Origin: Gemmatimonadota bacterium
Lineage (GTDB): Bacteria > GCA-2686955
Assembly: GCA_002686955.1 (NCBI GenBank)
Contig: NYZA01000227.1
Span: forward strand, 1-38,357
Direction: 5' to 3'
DNA length: 38,357 bases
Part shown: in pieces, positions 11,087 to 22,921 of the stretch
Layout: each line of letters starts with the position of its first letter
How positions within the stretch are numbered: position 1 is the first letter of the stretch
Program-made: the position numbers and the translations under genes
The notes under the pieces: generated by a model
Databases searched by the model: none
What the model was told of the DNA's origin: nothing
The model's input: only the letters and a program-made list of their open reading frames with translations

Positions 11087-11226
11087 GGGGTTAGGGTCGG
11101 CGGTGCTTGGGCGTTTATTAGCAATGAGCCCACGTTCGGTGTAGTGTGTGCTCGGCGAAACAGAGCGTTGCTTCACCGTCCGAGACACGGGGGTGTTCGG
11201 ACCACGAGCGATTCGGAGAGTGCATC

Positions 11227-12222
11227 ATGTCGGACGAACTCGACTTCAGCGAACTCTTGAACCAGGCCCGCGGGCCGACTCCCGCGCAGCGCAGATTCGC
11301 GGGCTGGGTGATCTTGGTCGGCTTCCTGCTCGTCGGGCTGGCCAGCAGCATCTACACGATCGGTCCCGAAGAGATCGGCGTCATCAGACGCTTCGGCCAG
11401 TTCACCGGAGTCACGCAGCCGGGTCTACACGTGCGAATCCCCTTCGGAATAGACGTTCTCGACAAGGTGCCGGTTCAGCGGCAGCTCAAAGAGGAGTTCG
11501 GATTCCGAACCCAGAGCGCGGGTGTGCGGAGCACTTTCGTCAACCGCGGCTACGAAGAAGAAGCGTTGATGCTGACGGGAGACCTCAACATCGGTTCGGT
11601 CGAGTGGATCGTGCAGTATCGAATCACCGATCCCTACCGTTTCCTCTTCCGCGTTCGCAATCTGAGGGAGACCCTACGCGATCTGAACGAAGCGGTCATG
11701 CGCGACGTCGTGGGCGATCGCACCATCAACGAGGTGCTTACGGTCGGCAGAATCGAGATATCCAACGCGGTCAACGCTCGACTTCAGGTTTTGGTGGACC
11801 AGTACGAAATGGGGATCGGCATCGACCAAGTGGTACTGCAGGATGTGAACCCTCCCGAACGGGTCAAGCCCTCGTTCAACGCGGTGAACGAAGCGCAGCA
11901 AGAGAGGGAGAAGCTGATCAACGAGGCGCGAGCCGACTACAATCGCGTCATTCCTCGCGCGAAGGGTGAGGCGGAGCAGATCATCAGCGAGGCGGAGGCG
12001 TACCGACTCGAGAGAGTCAACGGCGCCAAGGGGCAGGCCAACCGCTTCAACAGTCTCTTCGCCGCCTACAGAAAGTCACCCGAAGTGACGCGAAGACGCA
12101 TCTATGTCGAAACCTTGGAGAAGGCCCTTCCCAATGTCGGCAAGAAGGTGATTCTGGATCCGGAGCTCGAGGGGGTACTCCCTCTGCTGAATCTCGGTAG
12201 CGCTCTGACGGAGGGGAGGTAG
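11227..12222 (+). CDS. hflK: HflK, membrane SPFH/prohibitin-family protease modulator
   Basis: 331 aa from the ATG at 11227, chosen because GGAGAG lies just upstream and the frame before it has no homologous residues. HflK with HflC forms a large cage around the membrane protease FtsH. One N-terminal membrane helix (about 26-46, 'WVILVGFLLVGLASSIYTI') is followed by the SPFH domain from 'GPEEIGVIRRFGQF', including 'QPGLHVRIPF', 'GSVEWIVQYRITDP' and 'DVNPPERVKPSFNAVNEAQQER', then an Ala/Glu-rich coiled coil. It is followed 2 bp later by hflC and is clearly in one operon with it. No ftsH is present in the window. Confidence 0.95.
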   Translation: MSDELDFSELLNQARGPTPAQRRFAGWVILVGFLLVGLASSIYTIGPEEIGVIRRFGQFTGVTQPGLHVRIPFGIDVLDKVPVQRQLKEEFGFRTQSAGVRSTFVNRGYEEEALMLTGDLNIGSVEWIVQYRITDPYRFLFRVRNLRETLRDLNEAVMRDVVGDRTINEVLTVGRIEISNAVNARLQVLVDQYEMGIGIDQVVLQDVNPPERVKPSFNAVNEAQQEREKLINEARADYNRVIPRAKGEAEQIISEAEAYRLERVNGAKGQANRFNSLFAAYRKSPEVTRRRIYVETLEKALPNVGKKVILDPELEGVLPLLNLGSALTEGR

Positions 12223-12224
12223 CC

Positions 12225-13172
12225 ATGAACAAGCTGATCGCGCCTCTGGGCATTTTGATCCTCGTGCTCCTGGTGGTCGCCGGCTCGGCCCTTTTTGTGA
12301 TCGACGAGACGGAGCAGGTGATCGTTACTCAATTCGGAAAACCGGTGGGTGAACCGATCGCCACGCCAGGGCTGCATGTCAAGCTTCCCTTGATACAAAA
12401 AGTCCACGGCTTCGAGAGGCGCTTCATCGAATGGGACGGAGCCGCGAACCAGCTCCCGACCAGAGACAAACGCTTCATCTGGGTCGACACGTACGCCCGT
12501 TGGCGCATCCACGATCCGCTCCTCTATTTCCAGCGCGTGCGCGATGAATGGGGGGCGCAGAGCCGCCTCGACGATATTCTCGACGGTGAGACTCGCAACG
12601 CGATCGCGGCGCACGATCTCGTGGAGCTGGTTCGCAACACCAATAGAGTGCCGGTGCGCGCCGACGAGTTCGATGAGGGAGAGTCAGTGCAATTCCCCAG
12701 CATCGAGTTGGGCAGGGAGAAGATCAAGAAGGAGATTCTGCTCGCCGCCGCGGCCAGAACGAAAGATCTGGGGATCGAGATTCTCGACCTTCAATTCAAG
12801 CGGATCAACTACGTCGACGAAGTGAAGCTCAAGGTATACGAGCGCATGATCGCCGAGCGCACGCGAATCGCCGACCGCTTCCGTTCCGAGGGGCAGGGAG
12901 AGGCATCGAAGATCCTCGGCCAGAAGTCTCAGGAGCTTTCGAGGATCCAGTCGAACGCACGAAGAGAAGCCGAAGAGATCCGAGGTCGTGCCGACGCGGA
13001 AGCGACGGAGATCTATGCCGACGCCTACGACCGGAGTGTGGAGTCGCGCAAGTTCTACGAGTTTCTGAAAACGATGGAGGCCTATCAAAAGACGATGGAC
13101 GAGAGCACGACGGCACTTCTCTCGAGCGACGGGGACTTCTATCGCTATCTGTCGACCGACAAGACACCGTAA
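12225..13172 (+). CDS. hflC: HflC, membrane SPFH/prohibitin-family protease modulator
   Basis: 315 aa, partner of HflK. There is one N-terminal membrane helix (about 5-27), then the SPFH domain with 'DETEQVIVTQFGKPVG', 'TPGLHVKLPLIQKVHGFERR' (used as a landmark) and 'DTYARWRIHDPLLYF'. After that comes the HflC-typical 'GIEILDLQFKRINYVDEVKLKVYERM' region (about 185-210) and a coiled coil 'GRADAEATEIYADAY'. The ribosome-binding site GGAGG lies in the 3' end of hflK, and the stop (TAA) directly abuts the ATG of the glycosylase gene, so all three genes are probably cotranscribed. Confidence 0.95.
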   Translation: MNKLIAPLGILILVLLVVAGSALFVIDETEQVIVTQFGKPVGEPIATPGLHVKLPLIQKVHGFERRFIEWDGAANQLPTRDKRFIWVDTYARWRIHDPLLYFQRVRDEWGAQSRLDDILDGETRNAIAAHDLVELVRNTNRVPVRADEFDEGESVQFPSIELGREKIKKEILLAAAARTKDLGIEILDLQFKRINYVDEVKLKVYERMIAERTRIADRFRSEGQGEASKILGQKSQELSRIQSNARREAEEIRGRADAEATEIYADAYDRSVESRKFYEFLKTMEAYQKTMDESTTALLSSDGDFYRYLSTDKTP

Positions 13173-13769
13173 ATGGCGCTGCTACCGCGGCGCTATTTCG
13201 AACGCTACGTGGAAGAGGTCGCTCGCGGGCTCGTCGGCGTCGAGATCCATCTCGGTGGTGTCACTCTTCGAATAACGGAGACCGAAGCGTACGGCGGACC
13301 GGAGGATTCCGCTTCCCACGCGCGCTTCGGTCACACGGAGCGAAACGCTCCGATGTGGGGACCCGCGGGGTGCGTGTACGTCTATCTCTGCTACGGCATC
13401 CACAACATGCTCAATTTCGTGACCGGACCGCGCGGGGCGGCCGGGGCGGTGCTGATTCGCTCGTGTGAGCCGATCGAAGGGATCGAATTGATTCGAGAGC
13501 GTCGTGGCGAGCGGGCGGGGACGGAGTTGTTGGCGGGCCCCGGTCGTGTCGGAGAAGCACTTGGGCTCGATGTGGGCTGGAGTCACCACGACGCCTGCGC
13601 GGGTGGCGGCCTCGAAGTGCATGAGGGGGAACCGCCGAAGCGCCTCTTTGTCGGCTCACGAGTCGGCGTGAACTTCGCGGAGAAGCACGATAGGGACAAG
13701 CAAAGACGGTTCGCCGACGGAGCGACGACGTGGATCAGCCAGTCGAATGGGCTGATCGAGGGCCCGTGA
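13173..13769 (+). CDS. mpg: DNA-3-methyladenine glycosylase, AAG/MPG family
   Basis: 198 aa, normal length for bacterial members. It excises alkylated purines from DNA in base-excision repair. Landmarks are 'GVTLRITETEAYGGPEDSASHA' (about 29-50, holding the conserved E-T-E-A-Y with the catalytic acid), 'GCVYVYLCYGIHNMLNFVTG' (the Y-V-Y-x2-Y-G DNA-intercalating region) and 'AVLIRSCEPIEG', then 'LLAGPGRVGEALGL'. It starts immediately after the hflC stop with no gap, which couples its translation to hflC. Its last 35 bp overlap the 3' end of the convergent oxidoreductase/polyferredoxin gene. Confidence 0.93.
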   Translation: MALLPRRYFERYVEEVARGLVGVEIHLGGVTLRITETEAYGGPEDSASHARFGHTERNAPMWGPAGCVYVYLCYGIHNMLNFVTGPRGAAGAVLIRSCEPIEGIELIRERRGERAGTELLAGPGRVGEALGLDVGWSHHDACAGGGLEVHEGEPPKRLFVGSRVGVNFAEKHDRDKQRRFADGATTWISQSNGLIEGP

Positions 13770-15879
13770 GCTGCAGAACCTCCATGGGACAGACTTCGAT
13801 GCAGATCCCGCACTGGATGCAGGACGAGTCGGTGTTCCGCAGTGGCTCTCGACGCTGCGCGAAGCGTTGCACGTCGATTCCCATCTGACAGAAGCGGGTG
13901 CACTCGCCGCACCCGATGCAACGATCGTTGCTTTCGATCTTCAAACGGGCGATTCGGGCGGCGAGAATCTGCATCCAAGCGCGCAGAGGACAGAAAAAGC
14001 GACACCATACCCGGGAGCCCCAGTACGGGTAGAAGGCGACACCGACGATGCTGGCGAGCACGAAATCGATCATGAGACTGTACCAATACTGGGCGAACTC
14101 CTTGGTCGAGTAGAGCCCATCCGAGAGGATTCCCCATGCATCGGCCAGAATCAGGGCGGTCACCGGCAGGGCGAGAAGCAAGATCGCCCGCCCGAAACTC
14201 TCGGTTCGATAGGAGCTGCTTCCTCTCGGCGCCAGGTGTCTCCAGAAATCCCCGAGAGTCTCCGCCAGGCCGCCGCAGCCGCAGAGGTAGCTACAGAATC
14301 TCTCGCCCTGATATCGGACATAGAGCGGAATCACGACGAATGCGGAGGCGAACCCTACCGCGATCCAGGCCAGAGCTGTCGCTGTATCCCCGCCGGCCCA
14401 CGATGGAGCATCGATCAATGACCAGATCGAGAGCGGCCATGGCACCACCGCCGCATAGATCTTCCAGGGCCGCTCGATGATCATGGGGGCGAGGATCTCC
14501 GGTATTCCGAAGAGGAATACCCACTGAAAAGAGACTAGGGAGATGTAGCGACGTTTTTGGGTCCTGGATGGGTAGCGGCGGTAGGCGCGGATGCCGAAGA
14601 GCAGGAGCACGATGGAGTAGACCACGGTGCCCCAGAAGCTCGCATCGACGCTTCGAAACCCGAGATCCGCTTCGAGCAAACCCGGGACGAATCCCAGCGC
14701 GTCCTCCGGTCCGAAGGGGAAGAACATCTTCTTCGCCTTCAAGGTGTAGAAGCAGTAGGTGATGAGACCGAAGCACGCGATCCACAGGGCGCGTGCGAGA
14801 TCGATGTCACCCGACATGCGGATGCCGATGCGATTCAAGAAGGCTCGGGGGAGGGCCGTGCCGATGAAGACGAGCACGTCGTCGTTCGGCAGACGCAGCT
14901 CGCCTTCGTGGCCGTCGAGCACAACCTCGGCCTCCTCGATCAGCTTGGGGGAGGTGCCGAAGAGCGTTCGAACCCGTCCTTCGGCGGCGTATTCCTCGAT
15001 CGTCCGTCGGTTCTCCGGCTTGGCGCGCGTAAATCGATCGCCTCGGTACGAGACCGTGACCCGGGCTCCGGCATCGGCGCACGACACCGCCGCCTCGACG
15101 GCGGAGTCCCCGCCGCCGACCACGAGCAGCTCACGGCCTCTGTAGTCGGCTGGGTCTCTCAGTGAGAAGGAGACCTTTTCGAGATCTTCGCCAGCGATGC
15201 CGAGACGGCGGACTTTCCCGCGTCGCCCGATCGCCAGAACGACTCTGCGGGCGAGGTAGCTCTTCGATTCGCCTTCCCGAGATTCGAGAACCCCTTCGCC
15301 CGGTGTTGATCGGAGATCGAGTCCGCCCGACGCGACGAGGGTCCGGACCTCGAATGGACCGGAGGCCAGCCTTTGGATGTCGGTGACCTCTTCGGGCTGA
15401 TGGAGGTTGAGACTCCTCTCTTCGATCGCCTCTCGCCAACGCTTCACCAACTCCTCCTTGGCGGCGTCCTCGAACCAGAATCCACCTTTCGACTCGATGG
15501 CACGAGGCTCGCTGAATATCCGCTTGTTCTTGGGGAAGTTCTGGATCGTATCGAAGGGTCGGCACTGCTCGATCACCACATACCGGAGCCCGGTCTCCCT
15601 CAAGGCCAATGCGGCGCCGATTCCGGCCGGACCGGCGCCAACGACCACGACATCGAGAATCGCTTCGTCCCCGGCGGGCCTCAAATCCTCCGCCACCGAT
15701 CTGGCCACGTCGAATCCCTGGTTCAGCGCAACTTTGATGATCGGCGCATCCGCCAGGTCGCCCACTACATACAAGCCCTTCACATTCGACTCGTGGTTGG
15801 GCGAGATCCGCGGCAGCTCACGCACACCGAGCTTGGGCGAAAACTCGAACGAGATCTTCATGATTCTGCGTGTCGGCAT
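13735..15879 (-). CDS. flavin NAD(P) oxidoreductase fused to NosR/CcoG-like polyferredoxin membrane protein
   Basis: 714 aa from the ATG at 15879; a Met at 15861 and a GTG at 15921 are alternatives. Residues ~1-55 hold a thioredoxin-reductase C-terminal-like segment ('KGLYVVGDLADAPIIKVALNQG') placed ahead of the rest. Next is a full two-dinucleotide-binding-domain flavoprotein: the FAD site 'VVVVGAGPAGIGAALAL' and the NAD(P) site 'LLVVGGGDSAVEAAVSCADAG'. The C-terminal half has about seven hydrophobic helices. It carries a Cys cluster 'FCSYLCGCGGL', then 'WCRFFCPLRAW' and two [4Fe-4S] ferredoxin motifs, 'CIGCGECTRFCQMG' and 'CIQCGICIEVCPME'. This pattern fits electron flow from NAD(P)H through FAD to membrane iron-sulfur clusters. 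The acceptor is unknown. The regulator gene starts about 118 bp away in the opposite direction. Confidence 0.85.
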   Translation of the reverse strand: MPTRRIMKISFEFSPKLGVRELPRISPNHESNVKGLYVVGDLADAPIIKVALNQGFDVARSVAEDLRPAGDEAILDVVVVGAGPAGIGAALALRETGLRYVVIEQCRPFDTIQNFPKNKRIFSEPRAIESKGGFWFEDAAKEELVKRWREAIEERSLNLHQPEEVTDIQRLASGPFEVRTLVASGGLDLRSTPGEGVLESREGESKSYLARRVVLAIGRRGKVRRLGIAGEDLEKVSFSLRDPADYRGRELLVVGGGDSAVEAAVSCADAGARVTVSYRGDRFTRAKPENRRTIEEYAAEGRVRTLFGTSPKLIEEAEVVLDGHEGELRLPNDDVLVFIGTALPRAFLNRIGIRMSGDIDLARALWIACFGLITYCFYTLKAKKMFFPFGPEDALGFVPGLLEADLGFRSVDASFWGTVVYSIVLLLFGIRAYRRYPSRTQKRRYISLVSFQWVFLFGIPEILAPMIIERPWKIYAAVVPWPLSIWSLIDAPSWAGGDTATALAWIAVGFASAFVVIPLYVRYQGERFCSYLCGCGGLAETLGDFWRHLAPRGSSSYRTESFGRAILLLALPVTALILADAWGILSDGLYSTKEFAQYWYSLMIDFVLASIVGVAFYPYWGSRVWCRFFCPLRAWMQILAARIARLKIESNDRCIGCGECTRFCQMGIDVQRFAQRREPLRNTDSSCIQCGICIEVCPMEVLQLTGPRSAHSTG

Positions 15880-15997
15880 CTTCGATTCCAGGGCTATGCG
15901 CCGGGTCGATTCCCCCCGCACCGGTGCCCATCATAGGCCCTCGTGGGAGGGTTGCCTCAGTGGTTCAAGTCGAACGAATTCAGTCGATATCTCCGAC

Positions 15998-16714
15998 ATG
16001 GACGCCGCAGAGAGGATCAAGTACTTCCGCGAGCGGGCTGGATTGAGTCCGCCTCAGCTCGCTGCCCTTCTTGAGCTGGCGCCGGGCGAGATCGAGGCGC
16101 TGGAGCAGGGGAAGCGCGTTCTCGACCTCGATCTGATTCCCGCGCTTGTGCGCGCTCTCGGTTCGAGCTACGACGAGTTTTTCGGTACGCGGCGCTTGGC
16201 GGAGGACTTCCAGACCGAGATCCTGATCCAGAAGATCTCCGCTCTCGATCCGCGAGCACGGCGGGAGATAGAGCAGTTTGTCGATTTCAAGATCGAGAAG
16301 GGGCGGCGAGAGGAATCGCGCCGAAGCGCTGATCGCCGGGTCGTCTTGATCGTGGATGACGATCGCCACGTGCGGCAGACACTGGTGCAGGCCGTCAATG
16401 ATCTCACTCCCCACCGAGTCCTCGAAGCTCCCGATGCCGACTCCGCGATCCGGCTGCTCGAAGAGGAGGAGGTCGATCTACTGATCACCGATCTGGTCAT
16501 GCCGCGGGTCAGCGGGATCGATCTGATCGAAAAGGTCCGGTTGGTCGATGCCGACCTGCCGATCATCGCGCTGACCGGCTATACCGACATCTTCGACGCG
16601 AACGATACGCTCGATGTCGATGTGATCCGCGGAAAACCGCTTTCGCTTCAGGGACTCGTGGACGACCTGGAGCGCTTGTTGGAGGCTTCGGACGATGGAG
16701 TGAGTGGGGTGTAG
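15998..16714 (+). CDS. XRE-family HTH fused to a response-regulator receiver domain
   Basis: 238 aa from the ATG at 15998. The frame is open upstream but that part is antisense to the oxidoreductase gene. Residues 1-65 form an XRE/Cro helix-turn-helix ('IKYFRERAGLSPPQLAALLELAPGEIEALEQG' spans about 7-38). A charged helical linker (65-110) follows, then a receiver domain with the acidic pair Asp121/Asp122, phospho-acceptor Asp165 ('LLITDLVMPR'), Thr193 and Lys213. The DNA-binding domain is N-terminal and the receiver C-terminal, the reverse of the common OmpR/NarL order. No histidine kinase gene is present in the window. It is divergent from the oxidoreductase/polyferredoxin gene, its likeliest local target, and ends 3 bp from the convergent four-gene cluster. 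Confidence 0.87.
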   Translation: MDAAERIKYFRERAGLSPPQLAALLELAPGEIEALEQGKRVLDLDLIPALVRALGSSYDEFFGTRRLAEDFQTEILIQKISALDPRARREIEQFVDFKIEKGRREESRRSADRRVVLIVDDDRHVRQTLVQAVNDLTPHRVLEAPDADSAIRLLEEEEVDLLITDLVMPRVSGIDLIEKVRLVDADLPIIALTGYTDIFDANDTLDVDVIRGKPLSLQGLVDDLERLLEASDDGVSGV

Positions 16715-16717
16715 TCC

Positions 16718-18715
16718 TCAGGAGACACGCCGCAACGGACGCCCCTCACCGTCGAGCACAAGGAGCTGGCGGGGCTCCCCCACGCTGAGCAAGAGGTGGC
16801 GATCACGGATCGACACCATTCTCCATCGGCGAACGCCGCGAAGCTCGTCCGGCAATCCACCAGCGATCACCGATTCGACGGCGACCCGCGAAACGATCGG
16901 TGCTTTGGCCAGACGGGTGCAGAGCGAACAGAGCGAGCGGCTCGATACACATCGATTGCAGTAGTGCTCGTGACAGCTCGAACAGCGAAGTGCGTGCCCC
17001 TCGCAGACTGTGTCGCCACAGGGGGCACAGGAGTGGGAGTGGACCGGGCAGGCCTGTCGACCACAGGTTCTGCAAACCTCTGCATGGGCACGACAGAGAT
17101 CGCTGTCGCAGATCGAGCAGCGGGTGCCGTCGCGGTCGCAAACGGCGTTGCCGCAGCTCGCGCACTCGCCCGCGCATTTCTCGCAGACCGCCCTGCCACA
17201 AACTGTGCACTCCGCTGCGTGATCCGCACAACGCGACAAACCGCAGCTCACGCAGATCGACGCGTGTTCTCCGCATCCCGTACGGTGGCAAGCGGCGCAA
17301 CGCTGCGAGTGGGAGGGGCAGACGATCGCCCTACAGAAATCGCATTCTTCCAAGCAGCAGGGGCAATGGGCGCGACCGCACACCGAGCAATCGATCGACT
17401 CCGAAGTGCAGACGGGCTTCCGACACCGGGCGCACTCGAGTGCGCAGTTCCAACAGAGCGCTCCGCCGCAGGTCGCGCATTCGGTTCGGCACCGACCGCA
17501 GAGATCGGTGTCACATCGAGCGCATCGGGCGCCGCAGCTTTCGCAAGACGCGCGGCCGCAACGCCCGCATTCCCGCGCATCGGTTTCACAGACGATGCCG
17601 CGACAGTCCTGGCACGAGGATTCACACCGATCGCATACCGGAGTCGCGCACGTCGAGCATGGCTGCACTCCACAGCCCACACAAGAAAACCGTCCGCACA
17701 TGCCGCAGATACGCGCGCATGCGGCGCAGACCACATGCCCGCTGGAGCAGAGCGATAGCTCGAGGGCGGGTGTTCCACACGCCGAGCATCCGCCTGCTTC
17801 CAACGCGCCGGTGGACTGGTCGATTTCGATCGTGTGCTCTCCTAGAAGGCGATCTCGCGTGAGCGTCACCCTCGCCCGCACCCAAGGAACCTCGATCTCC
17901 GCGAAGCTGACAAGCCGGATCACGACGCGCTGGCGGTGGTTCTCGATCTCCTCGGCCAGCTTGTGCTCGTATTCGTCGTCAACCTGTTCAGTCGCATCTC
18001 GCCAGCGCGCGGGATCGCCCCGGGGCATCTCTTCCAAGCGATCCCTATAGTAGCTCTTCAGTCGCGTGATTGTATGTCGCAATCGATCGTGCAGGGCATC
18101 GGCCATTTCGCCTGCCCGATCGCGGGCTACCCGAGCCGCGAGCTTTGATGCTTCCTGGAAAGCGGCATCGAGCTCTTCGACCGATGCGTGGCGGCGAAGC
18201 AGCACTTTCGAGTCGTCATCCAACCACGTTCCCGGATCGATTCGTCGGGCAACATTGTTGTCATCTACCGCGATGCTCACCAAATCCTCTATCCGCTCAT
18301 CGGAGAGATAGACCAGGCGTATATGGAACACGTAGTGGCGCTTGAGTAGTCGCTCCAGCCGCGGCTCCGAGGTATCGGCGTCGGTCGCGTCGATCCGCCG
18401 AGCGATCCCGTCTCGCCTCACCCGATGGCGCACGGGAAGACGCAACCGAAGGCGGCGGCCTTCGCTGCTCATTTGTTTGAGCACACTCTCGAGTACGAAG
18501 CTGCCCGGTGTCACTCTTTCGACATCCGCGCTTTGCACTCCCGTACCGAAACCGAGCAGCATCTCTTCTCGCCCAAAGAATTCGACCAGCTCTCCCCCCA
18601 TCCTTACGTGAGAAACGCCGCCCTCTCGAGAGATCTCCGCGCCGTGTCGCCGAAAGAAAGCCTCGGTGAAGTCGCGCAGATCGTCGAACGGGCCGGCCCT
18701 ATCCCCTTCGCTCAT
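16718..18715 (-). CDS. Cys-rich protein with seventeen tandem 15-residue zinc-finger-like units
   Basis: 665 aa, no family recognised. Residues 1-300 are cysteine-free, mixed helix/strand and rich in charge. An amphipathic helical stretch at 180-265 ('FQEASKLAARVARDRAGEM') is probably coiled coil. Residues 310-600 are an array of the pattern C-x2-C-x4-C-x2-[C/H/D]. Units begin at Cys337, 353, 368, 383 and then every 15 residues to 578; fifteen of the seventeen are exactly 15 long. The fourth ligand is Cys in the first half and mostly His in the second. The last 65 residues return to an ordinary beta-rich sequence ('LPDELRGVRRWRMVSIRDRH'). The array could bind many metal ions, like stacked zinc ribbons or B-boxes. 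It is the last gene of the cluster and its start overlaps the helicase stop by 4 bp (ATGA). Confidence 0.85.
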   Translation of the reverse strand: MSEGDRAGPFDDLRDFTEAFFRRHGAEISREGGVSHVRMGGELVEFFGREEMLLGFGTGVQSADVERVTPGSFVLESVLKQMSSEGRRLRLRLPVRHRVRRDGIARRIDATDADTSEPRLERLLKRHYVFHIRLVYLSDERIEDLVSIAVDDNNVARRIDPGTWLDDDSKVLLRRHASVEELDAAFQEASKLAARVARDRAGEMADALHDRLRHTITRLKSYYRDRLEEMPRGDPARWRDATEQVDDEYEHKLAEEIENHRQRVVIRLVSFAEIEVPWVRARVTLTRDRLLGEHTIEIDQSTGALEAGGCSACGTPALELSLCSSGHVVCAACARICGMCGRFSCVGCGVQPCSTCATPVCDRCESSCQDCRGIVCETDARECGRCGRASCESCGARCARCDTDLCGRCRTECATCGGALCWNCALECARCRKPVCTSESIDCSVCGRAHCPCCLEECDFCRAIVCPSHSQRCAACHRTGCGEHASICVSCGLSRCADHAAECTVCGRAVCEKCAGECASCGNAVCDRDGTRCSICDSDLCRAHAEVCRTCGRQACPVHSHSCAPCGDTVCEGHALRCSSCHEHYCNRCVSSRSLCSLCTRLAKAPIVSRVAVESVIAGGLPDELRGVRRWRMVSIRDRHLLLSVGEPRQLLVLDGEGRPLRRVS
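16930..17707 (-). repeat. 45-bp-period coding repeat (17 Cys/His units)
   Basis: In-gene tandem repeat corresponding to residues 337-593 of the Cys-rich protein. The period is 45 bp (15 codons) over fifteen units, with a 48-bp first unit. Only the Cys/His frame (C-x2-C-x4-C-x2-C/H) is kept; the residues between differ from unit to unit and the DNA is not highly identical. It is therefore an old, selected protein repeat rather than a recent DNA expansion. Confidence 0.85.
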
Positions 18716-20637
18716 TGTTCCAACACCGAATCGAGGATTCTATCCGCTTCCCTGATATGGTGAATCCGATGGCGGGCCTGCTCAAATCGATCGGCCAATG
18801 AACGAAAGCCCTCCTCCATTCCGCTCTCATCGTGAACTGAAAGAAAGAGCTCTCTCACGATCTGCTCAAACGATTGTTGCTCTCCGAGCTCACCGAGAAT
18901 CAGATCGAGCTCGCCGATAACAAGCTCGAACATCCGGATCTTGTGGGCCAATATGTCGAGAATCCGCGCTTCGATCGTTCCCTCGAGCGAGAGATTAATG
19001 ATATTTACGGGTTGCTCTTGACCCAGCCGATGCAATCGTCCGATGCGCTGCTCGACTCTCATCGGATTCCAGGGTAGATCGAAATTGATCAGTTGGTGGC
19101 AGAACTGCAAATTAAGCCCTTCACCACCAGATTGCGTCGAGATCAGAATCCTCGCTTCGTCTCGAAACCTGCGCAGTGTTTCCGATCTCGCGTGCATCGA
19201 CGCAAGCCCCCCGTGAAATATTTCGACCGATTCCCCTCTCTCGATGAGAAGGCGCTGGAGCTGCGACATCGTTTCGAGAAAATCGGTGTAAATGATGAAC
19301 TTGCCGGGGAACTTGTCCAGTATCTCATAGACGGCTCTCACCTTTCTAGTCTCGGATGAGATGCCGGCGGCGATTCCGGCGAGCGATCTGAGACGCTCCG
19401 CACCCTTTCCCGCCAGATCGGGTCGCTCCGCCATCGTGCGCAGTGTCTTGCTCAAGGCGGCGGGGGAAGATGTTGCCTCGCGCTGAAGAGTCACGAGTGT
19501 TAGCAATCGTATTCTGTCGGCATGTCCCGTCCCTAACTCGTCGCGGATGTAGCTGGTGATGTCGTCATAGACCTCCTGTTCGTCCGGTTCGGCCTTCAGA
19601 TGGTAAATCGCGGCCCTACGGGGAGGCAGTTTGATCCCCACCGTGCTGCGCCGATTTCGGATCATCACGTCGGATAGAACCCGTTTGAGCTCATCGGTTC
19701 GCGATGGAAGTCGTGGATCCTGTTTCGATACATGCGTCTTGCGGAAGTTTCTGACCGTCCCCAGGATTCCGGGCTTCAGAATCGTCAGCAGTGAATAGAG
19801 CTCCGTCAAGTCGTTGTGTACCGGCGTTGCCGTGAGCAAAAGAACGTATTTCTTCTTGATCCTATTGACGAATCGGAACCGTCTCGTCGCACGGTTCTTG
19901 AGTTTGTGCGCTTCATCGACGATGAGCAGATCATAGCGATGCGCGAGAATCTGTCGTGAGTTTCTTTCGGACTGCGCCGTCGAGAGTGATGCCAATACGC
20001 GCTCGCCGCCCCAGCTTCCAGGCGCCCTGGCAATAGCGAACTCTTCACCGAACTTCTCTCGCATCTCCTCTTGCCACTGTGTGACCACCGACGCGGGTGT
20101 GAGAATCAACACATTTCGAACGAGTCCGCGTAGCAACAATTCCTTCATCACAAGGCCGGCTTCGACGGTCTTGCCCAATCCAACCTCGTCGGCCAAGAGC
20201 GCTTGGCCTCGCATCCTCTGCAATGCATCTTGGGCCGCTCGCACCTGATGCTCGAAGTGCAGAATCTCAACTTCGTCGAGCGCCATAAGCGTGTCGAATC
20301 CGGGCGTGATGTCGTGGCGAGCCGCCGCCAGGCGAAGGCGGAATAGGTCGATATCAGGCGACATGGTTCCGGAGAACAGATCGGTATACGATCGGTCGAT
20401 CGCGACGCTCGGTTCCGGAATCTCGATCCCCGCGTCGCGAAAGAAGCTGAGGTTTTGGCCACGGCCGCCGAAGGGCTCGCCACAGCGAAAACACTCGTTT
20501 CGGGTTTCCGGGTCCAACCAGGCGCATACGGGGCAACGCCGACCGAGAGTCGGTGGCGCAAGATCGGCTTTTCGTTCGGTCGATGAGACCGGGTCGCGAG
20601 GGATCTCAAGCCACTCGAAGCGTTCTCCGCTCCTCAT
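18712..20637 (-). CDS. SNF2/RapA-like DEAH helicase with N-terminal zinc ribbon
   Basis: 641 aa superfamily 2 ATPase. Residues 35-52 form a zinc ribbon (Cys35, Cys38, Cys49, Cys52: 'CPVCAW...ECFRCG'). After a linker come the Q-like region 'LHFEHQVRAAQDALQRM', motif I 'LADEVGLGKT' (148-157), motif Ia 'ILTPASVVTQW', motif II D-E-A-H (241-244) and motif III 'LLTATP'. The C-terminal lobe has 'KFIIYTDFLETM', 'ILISTQSGGEGLNLQFCHQLINFDLPWNP' (motif V region) and 'QRIGRLHRLGQ' (motif VI). This is closest to RapA/HepA-type translocases, which move on double-stranded DNA and remodel protein-nucleic-acid complexes. RapA-specific N-terminal Tudor-like domains are not obvious. It overlaps both neighbours by 4 bp. 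A few lines sampled by eye had lower GC (47-58%) than the AAA gene. Confidence 0.9.
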   Translation of the reverse strand: MRSGERFEWLEIPRDPVSSTERKADLAPPTLGRRCPVCAWLDPETRNECFRCGEPFGGRGQNLSFFRDAGIEIPEPSVAIDRSYTDLFSGTMSPDIDLFRLRLAAARHDITPGFDTLMALDEVEILHFEHQVRAAQDALQRMRGQALLADEVGLGKTVEAGLVMKELLLRGLVRNVLILTPASVVTQWQEEMREKFGEEFAIARAPGSWGGERVLASLSTAQSERNSRQILAHRYDLLIVDEAHKLKNRATRRFRFVNRIKKKYVLLLTATPVHNDLTELYSLLTILKPGILGTVRNFRKTHVSKQDPRLPSRTDELKRVLSDVMIRNRRSTVGIKLPPRRAAIYHLKAEPDEQEVYDDITSYIRDELGTGHADRIRLLTLVTLQREATSSPAALSKTLRTMAERPDLAGKGAERLRSLAGIAAGISSETRKVRAVYEILDKFPGKFIIYTDFLETMSQLQRLLIERGESVEIFHGGLASMHARSETLRRFRDEARILISTQSGGEGLNLQFCHQLINFDLPWNPMRVEQRIGRLHRLGQEQPVNIINLSLEGTIEARILDILAHKIRMFELVIGELDLILGELGEQQSFEQIVRELFLSVHDESGMEEGFRSLADRFEQARHRIHHIREADRILDSVLEQ

Positions 20638-22148
20638 GTTTCGGCCGACGCACGCCGGGCTCGGCCCCGCGCCCAGTCGCGAAGGGCGGAAACATCGTGG
20701 TCCATCGTGCGGGACAGAGGCGCAGTCGCATCAAGATTGTGCAAAACATCGTCATCGGCGAGAGGTCGCTTCGCCTGAAAGGCGTCGAAAAGTCCGCCCA
20801 CCACCGACTCCTCGATCTCCGCGCCGCTGAATCCCTCGCTCGCGTTCGCGAGGCGCCTGAGATCGAAGCTCTCGGGATTGCGATCGCGAGCACGCAGATG
20901 GATCCGGAAGATCGCCTCCCTCTCGAGAACCGTCGGCAGATCGACGAAGAAGATCTCGTCGAATCTGCCCTTTCTGAGAAGCTCGGGAGGGAGCTGCCGC
21001 ACATCGTTGGCAGTCGCGACGACAAAGACGGCGCGGCGCTTCTCTTGCAGCCAAGTCATGAAGGTGCCGAACACTCTCGCGGCGGTGCCGGCGTCTGAAT
21101 AGTTCGATGATCCGGTCCCGGCGAAACCTTTTTCGACCTCGTCGATCCACAGAATGACCGGAGCGATCGACTCCGCCGTTCTGATCGCGAGTCGCATATT
21201 CTCTTCGCTTGAGCCCACCGTGCCGGAGAAAACGCGTCCGACATCGAGACGCAGGATCGGCTGCCCCCACTGCGCCGCAATCCCCTTGGCCGTCAACGAT
21301 TTCCCACAGCCTTGCACGCCAACGAGCAACACCCCTCTCGGGGCGGGCAGGCCGAATTCACGGGCGCGATCGGAGAGGGCATCCCCTCGCTTGCGGAGCC
21401 ATTCTTTGAGCTGGCCGAGGCCGCCGACCTGATCGAGGGTCGCTTCCGGATCGTAGTACTCGAGAATCCCCGACTTGCGAATGATCTGCTTCTTCTCTTC
21501 GAGCACCGAATCGACCGCCGAACCGTCCACCGAGCGAGCGCGCACGACTGCCTTCGCCATCGCGTTCTCGAACTCGCCGAGTGTGAGCCCCTGTGCCGCG
21601 CGAATCACGGCCTCGCGCGTCAGACGAGGAAGATCGATCCGCACGTCGCCCCGCTCGTGCAACCAACCCAGTAGATCGTCGAGCGCGCGCCCCAAGACCT
21701 CTCTGTCGGGCAGCTCGTGATCCACGACTTCGATCTCCTTGGCCAGCTCGGTCGGCAGCTTCAGCACCGGAGAGACCAGAAGAATCGAGACCGGGCGGGT
21801 GCGCAGCGCCGCCACCAGGTCGCGAAGTTTGCGGACGATTCGGGGGTCGTTCAGGTAGGGATGAAAGTCGAGAAGGACGACCATCCGCTCCTGGTCTTCG
21901 TTCGCGAGCTCATCGAGTACAATCCGAGGATCGGTCGTGTCGGGCCCGCGGCGCGCCGCCGGAACCGGAGCCTTGCGCCCGTCACGGCGGAGGCCTTCGG
22001 TCGATGTCCAGATCCACATCTCTTTCGAGACGGTCTTCGCCACTTGTCGCACCGATTCGAGGACGCGTTGCTCTTCGAATGAGACCACGTACATCAAGGG
22101 GTATCGCGCGCGGATGGAGTCGACCAGGTGTGAGATCAGGTTGTTCAT
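20634..22148 (-). CDS. AAA+ ATPase, Ycf46-like
   Basis: 504 aa from the ATG at 22148, which overlaps the stop of the preceding gene as ATGA; the frame is open further upstream but unneeded. Residues 1-200 resemble the N-terminal half of Ycf46-type proteins: 'LISHLVDSIRARYPLMYVVSFEE' (4-26), then a degenerate ATPase-like fold with 'MVVLLDFHPYLND'. Residues 240-450 are a classical AAA module with Walker A 'GVQGCGKS' (277-284), Walker B 'ILWIDEVEK' (332-340), sensor 1 Asn381 in 'VATAND', Arg fingers in 'LLRKGRFDE' (391-397) and sensor 2 'SGAEIEE'. Family knowledge: Ycf46 is found in cyanobacteria and plastids and its job is poorly defined. It probably forms a ring and, from its place in the operon, works with the helicase. 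Confidence 0.9.
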   Translation of the reverse strand: MNNLISHLVDSIRARYPLMYVVSFEEQRVLESVRQVAKTVSKEMWIWTSTEGLRRDGRKAPVPAARRGPDTTDPRIVLDELANEDQERMVVLLDFHPYLNDPRIVRKLRDLVAALRTRPVSILLVSPVLKLPTELAKEIEVVDHELPDREVLGRALDDLLGWLHERGDVRIDLPRLTREAVIRAAQGLTLGEFENAMAKAVVRARSVDGSAVDSVLEEKKQIIRKSGILEYYDPEATLDQVGGLGQLKEWLRKRGDALSDRAREFGLPAPRGVLLVGVQGCGKSLTAKGIAAQWGQPILRLDVGRVFSGTVGSSEENMRLAIRTAESIAPVILWIDEVEKGFAGTGSSNYSDAGTAARVFGTFMTWLQEKRRAVFVVATANDVRQLPPELLRKGRFDEIFFVDLPTVLEREAIFRIHLRARDRNPESFDLRRLANASEGFSGAEIEESVVGGLFDAFQAKRPLADDDVLHNLDATAPLSRTMDHDVSALRDWARGRARRASAET

Positions 22149-22921
22149 CGTTTCTTCGCAAGTCTCGATATCGGTCGCCACTCGTCGCTCCCCCTGAAGA
22201 GTTTGGAAAGATAGGCGTGATACCGATCGGCATCTCTGGGAACGAGCCTGCGGGGGGCCGGGTAGCCCAGGGGATTCGGCTCGTAGCGCCATATGCCGGC
22301 GACCTCCAGTCGCTCCGGCAGGTGGTCGATCGCGCTCTCCATGCGAGCCCACGAGAGGGCGGGGCAGCCTGAGCGCCGGCGCAAGGGGCTCAGGAAGGAA
22401 CGCATTCGATGTCGGTCGAGCATCCAGTGGCTCTTCGCCACCGGGCGGGCAAAGTCGAACCAATGCGGTCGCTCTGGGTCGAGCGCCGTGGGACCGAGAC
22501 GCAACCGAATGTGGCGATCCCGGCACCCGAGATGCGAAGGATACTCGCCATAGTCAGCGCATGCCTCGACATCGCGGCCCTCCGAGAGCACGTGATCGAC
22601 ATGGCAGTCAACGAACGCATCGATGTCGCCCCGATCGGCGGGCCATCCACTCAGATGCGCCTGCACGCCCGGCCATTCTCCGGCGAGGCGCCAGAGAGTA
22701 CGGAACTCCGCCAGGTCCTCGGCCCGGTAGGTGTTGCGGTAGATGCAGCCGCCCCGTTCGTCCAGCATTCGGACCGCGCCGGGGTGCTCGGCGTGAAAGG
22801 CGATCACCTCATCGATCCCCCGCACGTCGATCCGCCTGAAATCGAGAACGACGTACCAACCCCGATCCACGGGGGACCAATTCGATTCGGCTTCGATCGG
22901 GGTCTCGTCGGGCGTGTCCAT
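22145..22921 (-). CDS. uncharacterised protein, first gene of the AAA/helicase cluster
   Basis: 258 aa, no family recognised. It looks soluble and cytoplasmic: acidic N-terminal tail (1-18), then an alpha/beta sequence beginning 'GWYVVLDFRRIDVRGIDEVIAFHAEHPG' (about 21-48). It is unusually rich in His, Trp, Arg and Asp. A middle segment has several Cys/His residues: 'FVDCHVDHVL', 'VEACADYGEY', 'SHLGCRDRHIRLRLG'. These could bind metal. The C-terminal part is basic ('KLFRGSDEWRPISRLAKKR'). Its stop overlaps the start of the AAA gene by 4 bp (ATGA), the same junction used at the other two boundaries of the cluster, so all four genes are expected on one transcript. An adaptor, nuclease or substrate-recognition role is possible, but no catalytic motif is visible. 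Confidence 0.78.
   Translation of the reverse strand: MDTPDETPIEAESNWSPVDRGWYVVLDFRRIDVRGIDEVIAFHAEHPGAVRMLDERGGCIYRNTYRAEDLAEFRTLWRLAGEWPGVQAHLSGWPADRGDIDAFVDCHVDHVLSEGRDVEACADYGEYPSHLGCRDRHIRLRLGPTALDPERPHWFDFARPVAKSHWMLDRHRMRSFLSPLRRRSGCPALSWARMESAIDHLPERLEVAGIWRYEPNPLGYPAPRRLVPRDADRYHAYLSKLFRGSDEWRPISRLAKKR

Follow-up and report, generated by a model that had tools for sequence, protein, structure and literature searches.

A YqhG-like partner of a RapA-class SNF2 ATPase carries a seventeen-unit Cys/His array that may form an interlocked zinc ladder

The main finding of this work was the identification, in a Gemmatimonadota genome (GCA_002686955.1, contig NYZA01000227.1), of a protein in which a domain homologous to YqhG of Bacilli is followed by a long, strictly periodic Cys/His array, and whose gene directly follows that of an SNF2 ATPase. 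The window referred to below is the whole stretch of DNA analysed, 38,357 nucleotides. We consider it reasonably probable that this protein serves a RapA-like SNF2 translocase of split type as its partner subunit, with a docking domain and a metal-ladder arm. A more far-reaching proposal, put forward tentatively and as something that we would not yet call likely, is that the array represents a new kind of repeat, an open-ended zinc ladder of interlocked cross-braces that gains exactly one metal site per added 15-residue unit, and which bacterial and haloarchaeal SNF2 motors, having lengthened it more than once, would use as an arm with a reach set by the number of units. The partner domain itself is of a known kind, that of YqhG and probably of the RapA C-terminal domain.

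Results and Discussion

A seventeen-unit array with an exact period

The array protein and the operon to which it belongs comprise the following features:

16718-18715, minus strand: array protein, 665 aa, an open reading frame with a full-length orthologue at 47% identity
17789-18715, minus strand: N-terminal domain, residues 1-309, related to YqhG by hhalign and structurally similar by VIA to the RapA C-terminal alpha+beta domain
17708-17788, minus strand: putative zinc lead-in, residues 310-336, with C310xxC313, C323...H327 and C330xxC333, assigned by conservation
16940-17707, minus strand: 17-unit array, residues 337-592, C-x2-C-x4-C-x2-[C/H/D], period 15
16919-16930, minus strand: cap CxxC, residues 596-599, proposed partner of the unit-17 CxxC, from the sequence and its retention in long members
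16718-16900, minus strand: C-terminal beta-rich module, residues 606-665, from the alignment, with strands at 630-664 in the model
18712-20637, minus strand: SNF2 ATPase of the RapA/YqhH/BrxHI/DrmD class, 641 aa, PF00176 and PF00271
20482-20535, minus strand: zinc ribbon CPVCAWLDPETRNECFRC, near the SNF2 N-terminus
20634-22148, minus strand: AAA ATPase, PF00004, 75% identity in the nearest genome (G001)
22145-22921, minus strand: 258-aa protein, first gene of the operon, 54% identity in G001

From its N-terminus the array protein thus runs through the YqhG-like domain, the lead-in, the array, the cap and the beta module. The original prediction, made from the window alone, had described seventeen units with fifteen exact 15-residue spacings, and this description is confirmed: the units start at residue 337 and then at 353, 368 and so on up to 578, the first spacing being 16 and the following fifteen exactly 15, which places 16 units in one exact register. 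In the array region the strict motif was matched 17 times with a longest exact-15 run of 16, whereas 2000 shuffles of the same composition reached at most 6 matches and a run of 2. The fourth ligand is Cys in eight units, His in six, Asp in two and Glu in one, in the order C C D C C C E C and then H H H C D H H H C. The proposed shift from Cys to His along the array therefore holds as a trend but without a clean switch, and 16 of the 17 units fit C/H/D at this position, the misfit being the unit C428..E439. All 67 cysteines of the protein lie between residues 310 and 599, and the metal-binding region is wider than first delimited, since it takes in the conserved CxxC / C-H / CxxC lead-in (310-333) and the conserved CxxC cap (596-599). 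In the alignment, C310, C313 and C330 are invariant across 16 family members, the lead-in is kept also in short members, the cap CxxC is conserved in long ones, and the C-terminal beta module is conserved in several members with long arrays.

The array is real and not an artefact. An orthologue in the nearest genome, a Gemmatimonadetes MAG of the same family (G001, contig JALXCG010000613.1), has 47% identity and 17 units in identical register, with the three cysteine ligands of every unit identical between the two proteins. The two share 65 array cysteines, 29 of which differ in codon. A sequencing or assembly error, which had been named as a possible refutation, was thus not seen, and an artefact of repeat assembly was rejected, as the array holds no DNA tandem repeats. 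Two antisense open reading frames of 320 aa each (16796-17758 and 16900-17862) were discounted, since orthologues conserve the minus frame and the shared cysteines differ in codon as stated. Since there is no tandem repeat at the DNA level and the units of one array share only 14% identity at non-ligand positions, they are old and diverged.

Selection had been thought to act on the metal frame, with the intervening residues free to vary. The frame is indeed kept, but about 30% of the non-ligand positions are conserved unit by unit between the two orthologues, against the 14% between units within one array, and the mean BLOSUM62 score of non-ligand residues in unit-against-unit comparisons was 13.8 on the diagonal and -1.6 off it, although the own counterpart was the best match for only 9 of 16 units. 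This unit-by-unit conservation of the columns between ligands suggests that selection sees more than the metal frame, and on the same grounds a recent duplication or homogenisation was rejected for the window. The array was absent from all libraries searched, the window protein matching no Pfam, NCBIfam, PADLOC or PHROGs family, so that it did not turn out to be an ordinary known family; nor did we find any paper describing the array or the function of YqhG.

A YqhG homologue beside a YqhH counterpart

The N-terminal domain of about 300 residues is common to all family members. When compared by hhalign with 22 YqhG proteins of Bacilli it was matched with probabilities of 99.4-99.8 and E values from 8e-22 to 1.5e-28, against E values of 0.12-0.9 for reversed and column-shuffled controls. 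In the Pfam search the window protein had no match to PF11079 (YqhG), and sub-threshold matches to this family were obtained for two of 16 family members (one of them from genome G328). At all 26 YqhG loci an SNF2 gene lies directly upstream, and its product is about 40% identical to the SNF2 protein of the window. As shown by these sequence computations, the N-terminal domain is a YqhG homologue and the adjoining ATPase the counterpart of YqhH. Because of the profile homology and the shared upstream SNF2 gene, we regard YqhG and the array protein as one family of partners of the same ATPase, with the difference that YqhG ends after the N-terminal domain and carries no cysteine array. YqhH has been called a HepA/RapA homologue and is listed among the ATPases reported to contact RNA polymerase (PMC7385302), and the YqhH of Bacillus thuringiensis has ATPase and helicase activity, its loss making the cells more sensitive to UV (PMC10054049).

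In the window, the minus-strand order is the 258-aa protein, the AAA ATPase, the SNF2 gene and the array gene, and the same order is found in G001. The last two junctions of this four-gene operon are ATGA overlaps, including that of the SNF2 stop with the array-gene start. The AAA ATPase, which we take to be Ycf46-like, and the 258-aa gene, whose product had no Pfam match, are conserved in G001 only, while distant genomes keep just the SNF2 and array genes together. Elsewhere in the window, a convergent plus-strand gene (15407-16714) encoding a helix-turn-helix and receiver-domain protein ends just before the stop codon of the array gene, and two adjacent Band_7/SPFH genes, probably an HflK/HflC pair, occupy 11146-13172.

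Distribution of the family and of its ATPase

A scan of genome contigs with the single protein gave no match, while an alignment-based scan did, and when 386 genomes were searched with a profile built from three sequences, relatives turned up in 16; together with two Caldilineaceae MAGs found by name, these make up the family set of 18 genomes. Some members have long arrays (5 to 17 well-formed units), and others, of 372-386 aa, have a short tail of about one unit. In 12 of the 18 genomes the array or short-tail gene has the SNF2 gene immediately upstream, and in the other six SNF2 is present but unlinked. Among the 386 genomes, an SNF2 score of more than 590 bits coincides exactly with a long array: nine genomes have the one and the same nine the other, the two genes being unlinked in four of them. 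A more distant SNF2 occurs in six further genomes, and a partner gene adjoins it in at least three of these. The zinc ribbon CPxCxWL...CxRC was found in 11 of 11 SNF2 proteins of the bacterial long-array clade and in none of 12 others; it is a candidate docking site for the array protein.

Long arrays also occur on haloarchaeal plasmids. In Halorhabdus tiamatea, Halocatena salina and Haloferax lucentense, the SNF2 gene, the array gene and a gene for an Mrr-type nuclease stand in a row, with about 33, 10 and 43 well-formed units, respectively. The gene table of H. lucentense pSVX82-3 (NZ_CP104744.1) lacks the array gene, an open frame spanning 1244 codons (11338-15071), and instead lists three small hypothetical genes on the opposite strand. 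Other haloarchaeal plasmids encode a version of 385-394 aa with a single ribbon-like cysteine cluster at its end, adjoined by SNF2 in most cases. Since both long and short haloarchaeal versions occur, array length varies within one lineage; across the whole family the extremes are YqhG, which has no unit at all, and haloarchaeal plasmid proteins with more than 40, some relatives having a single unit. In the SNF2 tree three groups were recovered (bacterial long-array, short-tail and haloarchaeal), and two changes are needed to account for long arrays, one in the bacterial clade and one in haloarchaea, on a tree in which the haloarchaeal and outgroup branches are long. The tree is compatible with one origin of long arrays or with two.

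The Mrr-type nuclease that follows the array gene in the three plasmid loci, and a short haloarchaeal relative that adjoins DUF499 and DUF262 genes, would fit an anti-phage module resembling DISARM, BREX or Hachiman, in which the array senses or binds phage DNA complexes. The SNF2 partner points the same way insofar as its best PADLOC matches are BrxHI and DrmD. Its scores, however, are far below the curated cut-offs (250 of 950 bits for DISARM DrmD, 245 of 610 bits for BREX BrxHI), and no BREX or DISARM core gene, nuclease or methyltransferase was seen among the neighbours of the SNF2 gene scanned within the window. YqhG, moreover, is present in 57 of 60 genomes of its order and looks like a housekeeping protein, so that we regard a role in defence as quite unlikely. 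Phage relatives were looked for by tblastn and none were found at the sensitivity used. The N-terminal part of the Halorhabdus array protein (locus L066:7431-10718) is matched by phrog_36169, a viral family of unknown function, at E 4.7e-16, and viruses may carry a short version of the partner protein.

The predicted fold of the N-terminal domain and of the array

The full-length model, built from a four-sequence alignment and without metals, had a mean pLDDT of 75.8. In it the N-terminal domain is an antiparallel sheet with two long inserted helices, a layout that fits the topology described in 2026 for the C-terminal domain of RapA and of the BREX helicase BrxHII, which was said to have these same elements and no known homologues beyond the two proteins (PMC12839542). 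The first three Foldseek matches of this model were RapA. VIA placed model residues 6-279 on RapA 708-968 with a Z score of 7.9, just under 8, over about 228 residues with an rmsd of 7.4-9.3 A, its lists being compatible with other folds too. The profile-profile match of the family to RapA was weak (E 0.0014-0.0023) but collinear; the long-array subset alone gave E 0.11 against RapA_C, which is noise level, and the Pfam search found no match to PF12137, the RapA C-terminal domain, in the window protein or in family members. A RapA C-terminal-domain fold is thus supported by the model but not proven. RapA (HepA) is an SNF2 ATPase that recycles RNA polymerase, and the present system resembles it in ATPase class and, tentatively, in this predicted fold, but here the domain of C-terminal type stands apart from the ATPase as a protein of its own, extended by a metal array, and the ATPase (641 aa) bears its own zinc ribbon.

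The model of the array alone reached a pLDDT of 88.3, which makes a rigid rod, as had been suggested, plausible. FYVE-type fingers could be superposed on three to four consecutive units of it, with Z scores of 5-6 over 45-55 residues and rmsd of 2-4, a local and weak likeness, with LIM and PHD proteins coming next among the structural matches. Foldseek with the array-only model gave a best E value of 0.03, to a LIM protein, and a sequence search of the PDB gave one FYVE chain at E 0.005, while a Pfam scan of the window protein returned neither a FYVE/PHD nor a B-box match. The likeness to stacked B-box or zinc-ribbon scaffolds that had been proposed is consequently the poorer one. LIM proteins are likewise tandem zinc modules, but their modules are of about 55 residues with separate sites, whereas the units described here are of 15 residues and would be interlocked.

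Proposed interlocking of neighbouring units

Evidence on how the ligands may be wired came from ligand pairs that are lost together. Fourteen arrays were decoded into units, the CxxC ligands of each being denoted as pair A and the Cxx[C/H/D] ligands as pair B; with caps excluded, the sample held 250 units, 51 broken A pairs and 35 broken B pairs. The A pair of unit u and the B pair of unit u+1 were broken together 23 times against 7.2 expected, a count reached in none of 5000 shuffles, and the latter was broken in 23 of 43 cases when the former was broken but in only 7 of 166 when it was intact. This association had a Fisher P of 4e-13, of 1e-9 in a less redundant set and of 1e-6 without Haloferax; the 14 arrays are related to each other and the shuffles ignore this kinship. 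Such defect pairs are present in distant lineages. The other pairings gave 4 joint losses against 9.6 expected (same unit), 9 against 7.2 (nested) and 7 against 11.4 (A of unit u with A of unit u+1). A weaker excess for A pairs two units apart suggests that defects recur at this spacing. Co-loss gave no support to pairing inside one unit, to nested or two-unit pairing, or to A-A and B-B pairing between adjacent units.

That neighbouring units share or interleave metal sites had been predicted in general terms, and since A of unit u and B of unit u+1 are lost together, this pattern supports their interlocking and specifies that one metal ion may be held between these two pairs. Each site would then interlock with its neighbours, as in a continuous FYVE/PHD cross-brace. 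A FYVE finger shows a single instance of the kind of interleaving proposed for the ladder, with its ligand pairs 1 and 3 around one ion and pairs 2 and 4 around the second. The array shares with FYVE/PHD fingers the CxxC-x4-Cxx[CH] core, the interleaved ligand pairs (here from the co-loss pattern) and the local three-unit superposition; those fingers are single domains with two ions, while the brace of the window protein would run through 17 or more units at a fixed period. At the ends, C310/C313 would pair with C330/C333, C323/H327 with the B pair of unit 1, and the A pair of unit 17 with C596/C599. The loss of both the C323/H327 pair and the B pair of unit 1 in one relative (G054) agrees with the second of these pairings. 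With lead-in and cap counted, the rule places 66 of the 67 cysteines at ligand positions and predicts n+2 ions for n units, that is, 19 for 17 units and 3 for one-unit relatives.

So many cysteines at ligand positions could also mean that the array is a store of metal or thiols whose conformation responds to oxidation or to the loss of zinc, so that the SNF2 motor is switched under stress, a sensor to which the UV sensitivity of the yqhH mutant of B. thuringiensis (PMC10054049) and a ferredoxin-like redox protein encoded nearby in the window would be congenial. The unit-by-unit conservation outside the ligands, like the exactness of the register, is more readily expected of a scaffold than of a store, and YqhG works without any array; we therefore hold a sensor to be improbable.

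A possible arm for the motor

In the reading that we prefer, a partner subunit bearing a metal-ladder arm, the N-terminal domain would dock on the SNF2 ATPase and the ladder would act as a stiff arm carrying the motor to its substrate, possibly an RNA polymerase that has stalled or a complex bound to DNA. During evolution the arm would lengthen or shorten by an integral number of 15-residue units. The arrays of bacteria have almost no net charge, and this near-neutrality gives no hint of nucleic-acid binding. This neutrality, together with the high predicted order of the array, would also suit a mere spacer or oligomerisation rod that clusters several ATPases without touching a substrate, an explanation that we consider unlikely, as the beta module conserved past the array in several long members suggests that the tip presents something.

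Conclusion

The arm proposed here for the SNF2 motor links three loose ends, namely the Bacillus pair YqhH-YqhG, the RapA C-terminal domain and an unnamed family of long, regular Cys/His arrays, of which the array looks like a real, length-variable and previously undescribed molecular part. If the ladder is true, it would be a genetically encoded rod, with both its length and its complement of metal ions given by the number of units, a part of possible use in protein design, and the reach of an SNF2 motor to its target would become directly testable.
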